Positions 8,535 through 12,766 of a stretch of DNA of 64,000 nucleotides are shown piece after piece (within the stretch, counting starts at the first letter, position 1; every line of letters starts with the position of its first letter). This DNA is from an uncultured Lachnospiraceae bacterium. Lineage in GTDB: Bacteria > Bacillota > Clostridia > Lachnospirales > Lachnospiraceae. The stretch spans positions 62,001-126,000 of the forward strand of contig CACWRR010000002.1 in the NCBI GenBank assembly GCA_902763335.1, in the 5' to 3' direction. The translations under genes and the position numbers were made by a program. The notes under the pieces were generated by a model that was not told where the DNA came from, did not search any database, and saw nothing but the letters and a program-made list of their open reading frames with translations.

Positions 8535-8669
8535 GTCAATCCTCCCATCATAAAAACTGTTTTATAGCAAAATTCATATTTAGAATTGCTATCAGGTTTC
8601 AAAAACAAAAGTTTATCATAATATATTCTTAAGATATAAAAAAGATAACCGGTAATGGGGGTAAAAGGA

Positions 8670-9821
8670 ATGGAGAAGCTTATATATTTGGATAATGCAG
8701 CAACGACAAAGATATATTCAGATGTACTGAGAGAAATGTTGCCATATTTTTCTAAGATATATAGCAATCCTTCAGGAATATATGAATTTTCTTCAAAGGC
8801 CAGAGAGGCAACAGAGTTGGCGCGTAGTAGGATTGCGAAATTAATCAATGCGGATGCAGATGAAATATTTTTTACTTCCGGAGGAACTGAAGCAGATAAC
8901 TGGGCTTTAAAATGTGCTGCTAAGGCAAACAGAAAAAAAGGAAAACATATCGTAACGACAAAGATAGAACATCACGCAATACTAAATACATGCCGGTCAC
9001 TGGAAAATGAGGGATATGAAGTGACATATCTTGAGGTAGATAAAGACGGGATGGTGAATCCGGAGCATGTAATGGATGTTGTAAAAAAAGGAACTATAAT
9101 TATTTCAGTGATGACTGCAAATAACGAAGTGGGAACTATACAGAATATAGCCCAGATAGGCAGAATTGCAAGGGCAAATAATGTTTTGTTTCATACAGAT
9201 GCAGTTCAGGCGTTTGGACAAATACCGATAGACGTTAAAAAAATGAACATAGATATGTTAAGTGCCAGTGCCCATAAACTGCACGGCCCCAAAGGGGTAG
9301 GATGCCTTTATATAAATAAAAATGTGGGAATAGAACCTTTCATGCATGGCGGTTCCCAGGAAAAAAAGCTGCGTGCAGGCACACTGAATGTACCGGGAAT
9401 TGTGGGATTTGGTAAGGCGGCAGATATTGCCTTAAATGAAATGGATGAAAAAATAAAAAAAGAAACAGAGTTAAGGGATTATCTGATAAACGGAATGATG
9501 GAAAATGTACCGGAGTGCACTCTTAACGGACATAAGACAATGAGACTTCCAAATAATACGAATTTCTGTTTTAAACACATTGAAGGAGAATCATTAGTTA
9601 TAATTCTCGATACGATGGGAATATGCTGTTCAAGCGGTTCGGCATGCAGCGCAGGGTCAAAGAACCCGAGTCATGTTCTTGTGGCAATGGGGCAAACTGA
9701 TGACGATGCACATGGGGCACTAAGGCTTACTTTATCAGAAAATACGACAATAGAGGAACTCGATTATACAATAGCGGCGGTAAAGAAGTCGGTAAACGGT
9801 TTAAGAACAATGTCATCTTAA
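8670..9821 (+). CDS. Cysteine desulfurase (IscS/NifS family)
   Basis: PLP enzyme that takes sulfur from cysteine for Fe-S clusters or tRNA thiolation; about 383 residues. It starts LIYLDNAATT, has the PLP lysine in SASAHKLHGPKG (about residue 202) and the catalytic cysteine in the loop SSGSACSAGSK (about residue 325), typical of group I enzymes. I prefer the ATG at 8670 over that at 8655, because GGGGGT lies about 8 bases before it and family members begin just before LDNAATT. No iscU or thiI lies next to it; the next gene has its own promoter. Confidence 0.93.
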   Translation: MEKLIYLDNAATTKIYSDVLREMLPYFSKIYSNPSGIYEFSSKAREATELARSRIAKLINADADEIFFTSGGTEADNWALKCAAKANRKKGKHIVTTKIEHHAILNTCRSLENEGYEVTYLEVDKDGMVNPEHVMDVVKKGTIIISVMTANNEVGTIQNIAQIGRIARANNVLFHTDAVQAFGQIPIDVKKMNIDMLSASAHKLHGPKGVGCLYINKNVGIEPFMHGGSQEKKLRAGTLNVPGIVGFGKAADIALNEMDEKIKKETELRDYLINGMMENVPECTLNGHKTMRLPNNTNFCFKHIEGESLVIILDTMGICCSSGSACSAGSKNPSHVLVAMGQTDDDAHGALRLTLSENTTIEELDYTIAAVKKSVNGLRTMSS

Positions 9822-9839
9822 TATATTCATAAATCCAAA

Positions 9840-9867
9840 TTGACAAAATAATCTGATTTGATATAAT
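9840..9867 (+). promoter_or_regulatory. Sigma-A promoter of the EAL/receptor operon
   Basis: TTGACA (9840-9845), 16-base spacer, TATAAT (9862-9867): both boxes are consensus. Confidence 0.78.
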
Positions 9868-9891
9868 TAATTCAAAAGAAAATTGATTGCA

Positions 9892-9925
9892 CCCGGCAGT
9901 TGGAATTGGTATTAAAACTGTCGGG
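9892..9925 (+). promoter_or_regulatory. Leader hairpin upstream of the EAL gene
   Basis: CCCGGCAGTT (9892-9901) pairs with AACTGTCGGG (9916-9925) in a 10-base-pair stem with one G-U pair. It lies about 20 bases after the predicted transcription start. There is no U-tract, so it is not a normal terminator; it lacks the conserved core of c-di-GMP riboswitches. Confidence 0.5.
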
Positions 9926-9967
9926 GCTATTTATATATAATGTGACAGCAGAATGGAGTGATGGATA

Positions 9968-11368
9968 GTGTTCGGGACCGGAATTACAGACATGAAAACA
10001 TTTCTTGATGTATATCCACATTTCCAGTTCAGATTTCTTCTTGTTGTAGTTTTATTTGTAATATTTTTTATTGTTGTGATGAAACTCAGAGAGAAAGAAT
10101 ATATTAAAATGGTCACGGGTAAGGATTCTGTGACCGGACTTATGAATTGGGAAAAATTCAAAGAAAATGTACGTGAGGCTATATCGAAAAGTTCAGAAAA
10201 AAATTATGCACTGATACAGTTTGACGTTGATAAATTTAAGGTAATTAACGATATGTACGGAATAGACGGTGGAAACAGTACACTGAGAGGAATCGCCGGA
10301 GAACTTGTAGGTCTTATTGATAAAAATGAGCTGGCAACAAGATTTTATGCAGATGTGTTCTGCGTGTTGATTTCGTATAAAAATGACGATGAGATTACCG
10401 GATTTATCAATACATTAAGTGAACGGATAAAGAACGGCGTGGCAGCCGGAAATGTATCACTTATATTTGGAATATATAAGATAGAAGAGGAAAATTTATC
10501 CGTGGATCTTATGGTTGACAGAGCCGGATTTGCAAGAAACAGTGTAAAGGGAAACAGTGTTATAAGATATTCTTTCTTTGACGGAAGAATGCTTGACAAG
10601 GTCTTAAAAGAGAAAAACATAGAGAACAACATGCAGTCTGCACTGGATGCCGGAGAATTCGAGGCGTATCTTCAGCCACAGTATTCGGTTAAGAATGAGA
10701 GGATAGTTTCGGCGGAGGCTCTTGTGAGATGGCATGACCCTATAAGAAAACTCATTCCTCCGGGTGAATACATAGAACTGTTTGAGAGAAATAACTTTAT
10801 AACAAAACTTGATGTGTATGTGTGGAAACAGGTATTTAAAATAATAACCAAATGGATTGAACAGGGAAGAGAACCATATCCTGTATCAATAAACGTATCT
10901 CCGGTACACTTTAGAAACCGTACGATTATAGATGAGATAATAGATGTGATAAATGAGTACAACATCCCTCTCAAATATATAGAACTGGAAATAACGGAGA
11001 GTGTTCTTTTGGATGATTTGCAGTATGCAATTGATACGATGGAAGAGCTGCATAATCTTGGTTTCAGGATTGCGATGGATGACTTTGGTTCGGGATATTC
11101 ATCTCTTAATATTTTGAATAAACTGTCACTGGATGTTTTAAAACTTGACAAGGAATTTTTAAATGATGCATCCAATTCCGAAAAAGGAAAAATAGTTATA
11201 AATGATATTATAACCATGGCAAAACATCTGAATATGGAGGTTATCTGTGAAGGAGTAGAGACAAGGGAACAGGTAGAGTATTTGCAGACTACTGAATGCG
11301 ATAAGATTCAGGGATATTATTATGCAAAGCCGATGTCATTAATTAACTTTGAAAAGGAGTATTATTGA
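9968..11368 (+). CDS. Membrane-anchored c-di-GMP phosphodiesterase (degenerate GGDEF + EAL)
   Basis: One N-terminal membrane helix (about residues 20-43), a degenerate GGDEF domain (about 50-205) where the signature reads YADVF, then an EAL domain (about 222-466). The EAL domain keeps the metal and catalytic motifs: EALVRW (about 250), NVSP, ELEITES, MDDFGSGYSS (about 371), KLDKEF, CEGVE and QGYYYAKP (about 448). This predicts an active phosphodiesterase with an inactive, possibly GTP-sensing, GGDEF module. The start is GTG at 9968 with GGAG about 9 bases upstream; ATG at 9992 is an alternative. One base separates it from the Cache-PAS gene, so the two are co-transcribed. Confidence 0.9.
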   Translation: MFGTGITDMKTFLDVYPHFQFRFLLVVVLFVIFFIVVMKLREKEYIKMVTGKDSVTGLMNWEKFKENVREAISKSSEKNYALIQFDVDKFKVINDMYGIDGGNSTLRGIAGELVGLIDKNELATRFYADVFCVLISYKNDDEITGFINTLSERIKNGVAAGNVSLIFGIYKIEEENLSVDLMVDRAGFARNSVKGNSVIRYSFFDGRMLDKVLKEKNIENNMQSALDAGEFEAYLQPQYSVKNERIVSAEALVRWHDPIRKLIPPGEYIELFERNNFITKLDVYVWKQVFKIITKWIEQGREPYPVSINVSPVHFRNRTIIDEIIDVINEYNIPLKYIELEITESVLLDDLQYAIDTMEELHNLGFRIAMDDFGSGYSSLNILNKLSLDVLKLDKEFLNDASNSEKGKIVINDIITMAKHLNMEVICEGVETREQVEYLQTTECDKIQGYYYAKPMSLINFEKEYY

Positions 11369-11369
11369 T

Positions 11370-12716
11370 ATGAAAAATGTGAGGAAATTTTTAAAGAAAA
11401 TCAATATGAAATTTGTACTCCTGTTTATGATTATTATATTTGTTTCTGTATCTTTCAGTTACTACAGGGAAAATATAGAGACAGTCGTTAATAATAATAC
11501 ATCAGAACTGTTACAGCAGATTATAGATGAGGGAACAGATTTTATAAGCATAAAAGTAGATGATTCATTTAGCAAGATGGAAGCAATGGCATCATTTATA
11601 GGTCAGTATGACGATATACAGTGCAAAGAAGTGTTAGATGCCCTTTCTGCACAAAATGAGAATGACCTTCTCATGTTCAGCGGAGTAATTAAGCTTGACG
11701 GTTCGGGAGTAACCATAAACGGAGAAACATTTCAGGCAGACTTTCAGGACTGGTACTTTGAGGAGGCATTAAGTGGTGAAAGAAGTATATCGGGAGTATT
11801 AAAATCTGATTCGCTTAATGGAGAGTACATTATTCTTGCAGTTCCGATATCACAAAACGGAAGTATCACAGGAGTTCTTCAGTGTGCCTATGATATAAAA
11901 ATGTTTACGGGACTTATAGGTGAGACCACCATAGGTAAAAAAGGTACTACATTTATAGCACAGAGTGACGGCACGCTTGTTTCACGTCCTGATGCCATAG
12001 GTAAATATACGAATCTTTTTGACCTGTTAGACAGTTTTAGCAATGACAAGGCAAGGATAGAAAAGCTTAAAAAGCAGATACAGAAGAATGAATCAGATAT
12101 TTTAACATTCAACACGGGAAAATATAAGAGATATGTCTGCTATTCAACTATTCCGTCAACGGAGTGGCATGCAGTATCCATAGTATCTGCAAGTGAAATA
12201 GAGGATGTTACGGATAAAATAACAAGATATGCGTTGATTTTAAGTGTTGGCATTACGGTGGTATTTACCATTTACATAGCTTACTGGTTTATTGTCAATT
12301 ATATAAACGGTAAAAGGATGCATATGAAGGAGCAGAGGTATCATATCGTTGCGAACCAGTCAGACAGTATAGTGTTTGAGTGCAACTGGATTGATAAGAC
12401 TGTTTATCACACGCATAAGTGGGAAGAAAAATTCGGCTATCCTCCTGTGACGGAAAATTATCTGGAAAATATGATTGAACAGGGAATAGTTTATGATGAA
12501 GATAAAGACAGATTTCTTGGAATATTCAAGCGGCTTGAGGAAGACGGTTCAGAATATGAAGAGGATTTTGTAAGAATAAATAATGCAGATAAAAAGCCTG
12601 TTCAGTGTAAGATAAGGGCAACTGCCATAAGAAACAGAAAAAATAAGATAATCAGGGTCGTAGGTAAAGTTCTTGAGATTAAGAATTTCTCTGAAGATAA
12701 TAAAAAACAGGTATGA
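11370..12716 (+). CDS. Cache-PAS membrane receptor without output domain
   Basis: 448 residues. First membrane helix about residues 14-31; extracytoplasmic region about 35-285 with Cache-type pattern (GTTFIAQSDGTLVSRPD); second helix about 287-311; cytoplasmic PAS domain about 324-440 (SDSIVFECNWIDKTVYHTHK ... KPVQCKIRATAI). It then stops, with no GGDEF, EAL, histidine kinase or methyl-accepting module. Start at 11370 is chosen because AAGGAGT lies about 12 bases upstream. It directly follows the EAL phosphodiesterase gene, so I infer it is the sensor half of a two-protein c-di-GMP module. Ligand unknown. Confidence 0.8.
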   Translation: MKNVRKFLKKINMKFVLLFMIIIFVSVSFSYYRENIETVVNNNTSELLQQIIDEGTDFISIKVDDSFSKMEAMASFIGQYDDIQCKEVLDALSAQNENDLLMFSGVIKLDGSGVTINGETFQADFQDWYFEEALSGERSISGVLKSDSLNGEYIILAVPISQNGSITGVLQCAYDIKMFTGLIGETTIGKKGTTFIAQSDGTLVSRPDAIGKYTNLFDLLDSFSNDKARIEKLKKQIQKNESDILTFNTGKYKRYVCYSTIPSTEWHAVSIVSASEIEDVTDKITRYALILSVGITVVFTIYIAYWFIVNYINGKRMHMKEQRYHIVANQSDSIVFECNWIDKTVYHTHKWEEKFGYPPVTENYLENMIEQGIVYDEDKDRFLGIFKRLEEDGSEYEEDFVRINNADKKPVQCKIRATAIRNRKNKIIRVVGKVLEIKNFSEDNKKQV

Positions 12717-12720
12717 TTAT

Positions 12721-12766
12721 AAAAACCTCCAGAAGTCAGAATTGATTCGGACTTTTGGAGGTTTTT
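12721..12766. terminator. Bidirectional terminator
   Basis: 17-base-pair stem (12721-12737 with 12750-12766, one G-U pair), A5 on one side and T5 on the other. It serves both the receptor gene and the convergent PHP phosphatase. Confidence 0.92.

Follow-up and report, generated by a model that had tools for sequence, protein, structure and literature searches.

A membrane Cache-PAS receptor without an output domain, encoded beside a predicted EAL phosphodiesterase and retained in relatives where the EAL gene is absent

We analyzed a stretch of 64,000 nucleotides (hereafter the window) from a gut-dwelling member of the Lachnospira group (genome G000). It contains a two-gene unit, in which the gene of a predicted c-di-GMP phosphodiesterase is followed by the gene of a membrane receptor lacking an output domain. 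The best-supported reading, to which we give about an even chance, is that this receptor is a free-standing sensor acting by contact and probably tuning the EAL enzyme as an optional partner.

The unit lies on the + strand and reads, in order, promoter-like site, EAL phosphodiesterase gene, dCache-TM-PAS receptor gene and terminator-like hairpin. The promoter-like site (9840-9867) is of the sigma-A type, TTGACA-16-TATAAT with TG before the -10 element, and matches the consensus at 12 out of 12 positions. As the promoter scan returned 17 sites with at least 9 matches, and shuffled sequences gave 14.1 on average, only the perfect score of this site and its recurrence count. TTGACA and TTTGATATAATTAA were also found directly before the receptor gene in two genomes of the same genus, G003 and G004, in the spacer that follows iscS. 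The iscS-EAL spacer of G001 contained TTTGATATAAT alone, and the 22-base mnmA-EAL spacer of G002 contained neither TTGACA nor TTTGATATAATTAA. The 5′ leader folds into a hairpin of 10 pairs (9892-9925) with no T-run after it, which corresponded to no Rfam family at the gathering threshold. A c-di-GMP riboswitch upstream of the unit was considered and rejected, the Rfam scan of the window at gathering thresholds having returned one tRNA elsewhere and nothing more. The EAL gene stops at 11368 and the receptor ATG lies at 11370, preceded by AAAAGGAG; the mechanical ORF list also proposed an upstream TTG at 11349, from which the receptor gene would overlap the EAL gene. Between the receptor gene and the convergent PHP gene, a hairpin with T-runs on both strands (12721-12766) resembles an intrinsic terminator, with folding energies of -25.8 (+ strand) and -22.6 kcal/mol (- strand). 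The consensus terminator scan, with its loop limit of 8, did not report it. This anatomy points to co-transcription of the EAL and receptor genes.

The first gene (9968-11368, GTG start) encodes a membrane-anchored protein of 466 amino acids. Hydropathy indicated a single transmembrane helix at residues 19-37 (10022-10078), followed by a GGDEF domain at residues 53-189 (10124-10534; Pfam 68 bits, cut-off 23.8) and an EAL domain at residues 220-455 (10625-11332; 220.6 bits, curated cut-off 31.3). The GGDEF domain is degenerate and reads RFYADVF at residues 125-131. YADVF in place of GGDEF is invariant in the 4 orthologues (G000, G001, G002, G128), none of which shows the active-cyclase signature GG(D/E)EF. 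Residues E250, N309, E341, D371, D372, K392, E428 and Q448, which we take to be the catalytic residues of EAL domains, are all present in the window protein, and these positions are likewise invariant in the 4 orthologues. The best matches among solved structures were the motility regulator entries 4rnh (E = 7e-82) and 4rnf (E = 2.2e-80). Thus, the protein is predicted to be a phosphodiesterase, and should destroy c-di-GMP. Its orthologues are 73% (G002), 63% (G001) and 51% (G128) identical to it, the other matches listed from outside the genus reaching at most 43%. Searches of its own genome gave 17 GGDEF matches and 8 EAL ones, of which the last fell below the cut-off, and the window enzyme is therefore one among several. 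Also, one EAL paralogue from this genome (L006, contig C11) has DN instead of DD before FGS, and may therefore be inactive; row L007 of that comparison was translated in a wrong frame and left out.

The second gene (11370-12716) encodes 448 amino acids organized as TM1-dCache-TM2-PAS, according to Pfam, hydropathy and a structure model. The extracytoplasmic sensor domain dCache_1 (residues 62-270, 11553-12179) was recognized at 74 bits (cut-off 45) and aligned with PctC; it lies between two helices proposed by hydropathy at residues 11-29 and 290-308 (TM2, 12237-12293). The C-terminal PAS domain occupies residues 345-432 (12402-12665). PAS_3 scored 21.1 bits in the window receptor, under the cut-off of 25.6, and the domain was assigned on three grounds. 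PAS_3 exceeded its cut-off in homologues at the aligned place (40.5 bits in G221, 28.4 in G340, and also G016 and G200; below the cut-off in G081), the profile search gave weak matches to 3eeh (E = 0.0011) and 3mr0 (E = 0.0046), both presumably PAS structures, and residues 351-430 of the structure model reached pLDDT values of 80-88. Outside the PAS domain the model was poor (mean pLDDT 54), and a fold search with this weak model, giving TM-scores of 0.13-0.37 among the 50 matches listed, carries no weight. The PDB search with a profile of 5 receptors gave no match at E up to 0.01. Only 16 residues follow the PAS domain, and no output family was detected by Pfam at E up to 1. At the TM2-PAS junction, MHMKEQRYHIVANQSDSIVFE is invariant in the 5 genus members, with or without the EAL gene. 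An earlier note on this DNA, written from the letters alone, had described the pair at 9840-12716 as two genes one base apart, with an intact EAL domain, a degenerate GGDEF domain (YADVF) and a receptor ending after its PAS domain with no known output module. These coordinates and this domain anatomy proved correct, 9840 being the first base of the promoter match.

Concerning the ligand, a profile of 13 receptors gave weak matches to dCache structures, namely 6iop (E = 3.7e-5), PctC (1.5e-4), McpH (4.5e-4) and PctA (0.016). One report gives R126, W128, Y144, D146 and D173 as the five-residue AI-2 set of PctA, and mentions that some AI-2 binders do not have the full set (PMC12503165). Using the PctC alignment by hand, in a weak register (23 bits), PctA residues R126, Y144, D146 and D173 correspond to D127, L144, S146 and A173 of the window receptor; when this alignment is shifted by one, the place of R126 is taken by Q126, which is still no arginine. 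Both the dCache_1AA amino-acid motif and the AI-2 set were therefore rejected for this receptor, as far as this weak register allows. Residues D127, Y129 and F130 of the receptor are invariant in the genus.

The receptor is present in all 5 genomes of the genus (G000 to G004), the other four being 60-74% identical to that of the window. The EAL gene stands directly before it in G000, G001 and G002, but not in G003 and G004, and the pair occurs in the same order in the distant G128, which brings it to 4 genomes. No EAL orthologue was found anywhere in G003 and G004 (assembly completeness 98 and 99%), where the best matching EAL proteins were 35% and 37% identical. In the tree, G003 and G004 group together (100/100) as sister to G000 and G002 (99/95). 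The simplest reading is that the EAL gene was lost once, in the ancestor shared by G003 and G004, because the outside rows G001 and G128 carry it. G185, placed between G128 and the genus (branch 80/68), has no EAL gene, and a single gain with later losses is thus just one possible reading of the wider pattern. Between G003 and G004, the receptor gene gave a dN of 0.077 and a dS of 1.35, that is a ratio of 0.057, compared with 0.085 for iscS and 0.042 for the PHP gene, all of these ratios being rough since dS is near saturation. None of the 5 receptor genes of the genus contains an internal stop. As judged from these rates, the receptor is under purifying selection in G003 and G004 despite the absence of the EAL gene.

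Beyond the genus, at least 14 members of the receptor family were found by searching 397 family genomes, the genus, and around G133. Eleven members came from the top of the 397-genome list, for which at most 4 candidates per genome were scored, two from the genus search (G003, G004) and one (G399) from the search around G133; as members were chosen from the top of a list, more than 14 may exist. Their Cache domains scored 288-456 bits on the family profile and the 12 other Cache proteins of the tree at most 151. As 13 of the 14 members went into the profile, G399 (288.7 bits) alone tests it independently. G282 (L186), with a Cache score of 82.6 bits and no mnmA seen in 12 kb, was left out of the family because Cache proteins outside it score up to 151. 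Its gene (L186:5555-6853) encodes another output-less Cache-PAS protein and has a KDPG/KHG-type aldolase gene after it, an arrangement shared with G221. Also, 8 of the 20 fetched loci (L057-L064) contained no mnmA and were not counted as members.

Thirteen of the 14 members stand directly after iscS, after mnmA, or after the EAL gene that follows these, and the remaining one (G200) stands one gene after mnmA. The window iscS (8655-9821) has no adjoining mnmA; another IscS-like gene is located directly before mnmA on contig C47 (L145) of the same genome. In G002, iscS and the EAL gene are separated by mnmA. ORFs were also found between iscS and mnmA in G399 (L177:7206-8411; 401 amino acids, with a zinc-ribbon just above the cut-off and a sub-threshold acyltransferase) and in G133 (369 amino acids, no Pfam match at E up to 0.01). 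Association with mnmA was surveyed at 100 further loci (L065-L164), ordered by best mnmA score and thus not random, of which two gave no mnmA ORF; the 98 others include the window's own genome and G001. A family Cache gene was present within three ORFs downstream of mnmA at none of these 98 loci, and a PHP gene at 36, so the family gene accompanies mnmA in some lineages only. At L113 (G102), the fetched stretch around mnmA contains a Cache ORF matching the family profile (E = 5.3e-21), outside the three downstream ORFs.

The C-terminal ends of the members are diverse. Eight of the 14 found end after the PAS domain (the 5 genus members, G081, G200 and G221), four have a Cache domain without PAS and end 9-39 residues after TM2 (G185, G128, G133, G399), and two end in a GGDEF domain (G340, G016). 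The GGDEF domain of the latter two may have been either kept or regained, the fewest changes over the whole tree being 2, with a weak root branch (77/75). These GGDEF-bearing proteins (L049:6093-7931 and L050:6068-8008) read RAGDDEF for RxGGDEF, and their activity is uncertain. An EAL neighbour was found for 4 of the 14 members; the receptor is kept without it in G003, G004 and at 8 further loci.

Two of the Cache-only members come from G133 and G399. No GGDEF and no EAL domain was found in G133 (99% complete), and no GGDEF domain in its sister G399 (95% complete), when the other 12 genomes gave 6 to 22 matches each in the same GGDEF search. Both keep the Cache-only protein beside mnmA, 52% identical between them. 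Differences at codon positions 1, 2 and 3 were 0.36, 0.26 and 0.62 for this gene and 0.26, 0.22 and 0.62 for mnmA. Thus, a part of the receptor family appears, from these gene comparisons, to be maintained without a recognisable c-di-GMP synthase to serve.

Domain fusions give another view of the pair. Ten long proteins were tested, comprising 7 Cache-GGDEF-EAL proteins (L030, L031, L032, L033, L038, L042, L043), from 4 genera, 2 Cache-GGDEF proteins with PAS and 1 PAS-GGDEF protein. The degenerate motif ..AD.F occurs in all 7 fused Cache-GGDEF-EAL proteins. The window enzyme aligns with them from its membrane helix on, with match starts at residues 4, 19, 23 and 23 for 4 of the 7, and this helix lines up with their TM2. 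These Lachnospiraceae proteins thus share domains and motif with the window pair, but each is one polypeptide where the window has two, and their Cache domains are only distantly related to that of the window (21-26% identity) and fall outside the locus clade in the tree (weak branch 77/75). Their existence supports, without proving, that Cache input and this type of EAL output belong together. The earlier note had read the pair as a split receptor for c-di-GMP turnover, had suggested searching for fused homologues, and would have given up this reading had receptor homologues always occurred without an EAL partner. The 4 members with an EAL neighbour and the fused homologues now found agree with it, as does the recurrence of an output-less receptor beside an intact EAL domain in G001, G002 and G128. 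As an obligate arrangement, the split receptor is not supported, given the 10 loci of 14 without EAL, the constrained receptor of G003 and G004, and the two Cache-only members in genomes where no GGDEF was found.

Several explanations can be proposed for these observations. In the one that we favor, the dCache domain would sense an extracytoplasmic ligand. Since the receptor has no catalytic end, its transmembrane helices, together with the PAS domain in members that have one, would touch another membrane protein and so relay the signal. The most likely target in this genome would be the adjoining EAL enzyme, whose own helix aligns with TM2 of the fused relatives; we infer both this contact and the direction of the signal. 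The partner of the enzyme in G128 has only the Cache domain and transmembrane helices, ending 9 residues after TM2, so coupling in G128, if any, cannot need PAS. The sensor would then be the constant component, joined by the enzyme as an optional partner, and where the enzyme is gone the sensor presumably works with other proteins. Alternatively, the receptor would be independent of the enzyme, either as a sensor in its own right or as a dominant-negative or scaffold of other Cache or PAS proteins, the EAL gene being a passenger gained or lost between promoter and receptor. The selection acting on the receptor in G003 and G004, the majority of loci without EAL, and the Cache-only members of G133 and G399 all speak for this. 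We consider it a serious explanation, of somewhat less than even probability, as 4 genomes share the EAL-receptor order, with enzymes diverged to 51% identity, and fused relatives exist.

That the receptor is a functionless remnant of a Cache-PAS-GGDEF cyclase having lost its catalytic domain was suggested by the proteins of that type which G340 and G016 carry at this place, and by the 4 members from which the PAS domain is missing as well. Decay is largely refuted by sequence constraint, namely the ratio of about 0.06 between G003 and G004, the uninterrupted reading frames in the genus, and the difference between second (0.26) and third (0.62) codon positions in G133 and G399, and we regard this explanation as highly improbable. 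Regulatory roles are possible for degenerate GGDEF or EAL domains, and the degenerate GGDEF domain of the window protein would fit a sensor of c-di-GMP or GTP rather than an active phosphodiesterase. This is improbable in our opinion, as every residue checked at the EAL catalytic positions is present and the closest solved structures are those of the motility regulators. Returning to the contact-acting sensor, a wider formulation would be that of an output-less membrane Cache family beside iscS-mnmA, maintained by selection through the loss or exchange of its catalytic ends. It would serve as a portable co-receptor for whichever membrane partner is available, the EAL enzyme in Lachnospira and in G128, and would survive even the loss of c-di-GMP signalling. 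We propose this tentatively, as a possibility on the unlikely side.

Among known systems, PapA/PapB and the H-NOX partners come nearest, as described in one report (PMC8846402). There, the solo EAL protein PapA of Rhodopseudomonas palustris and the separate BLUF sensor PapB are reported to form a complex. As in that system, the window encodes together a separate output-less sensor and an EAL enzyme; PapB, however, is a short BLUF light protein, whereas the window receptor is a two-helix membrane dCache-PAS protein whose contact with the enzyme is a proposal. In SwH-NOX/SwDGC, and in other pairings of H-NOX proteins with GGDEF/EAL enzymes (PMC8846402), a c-di-GMP enzyme likewise has its activity set by a separate sensor protein. 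This sensor, H-NOX, is a nitric oxide binder and no dCache membrane receptor, and the GGDEF domain of SwDGC is functional where that of the window is degenerate. Also comparable are the Cache-PAS-GGDEF proteins of G340 and G016, with homologous Cache and PAS domains and a position directly after mnmA, but they carry the GGDEF domain before which the window protein stops. Our literature search, mostly of papers open without subscription, returned no description of the EAL-receptor pair, nor of a family of Cache proteins without output at mnmA. What is new here is the membrane dCache-PAS version of such an arrangement, together with evidence that the sensor can outlive its partner and its pathway.

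These data also call for caution, as context alone is a poor ground for counting such proteins as c-di-GMP components. G000 and G002 on one side, and G003 and G004 on the other, provide natural plus/minus pairs for testing the use of a free-standing sensor. Cache sensors are usually interpreted through the domain to which they are fused; here, such a sensor is under selection without any output domain, both with and without an EAL neighbour.
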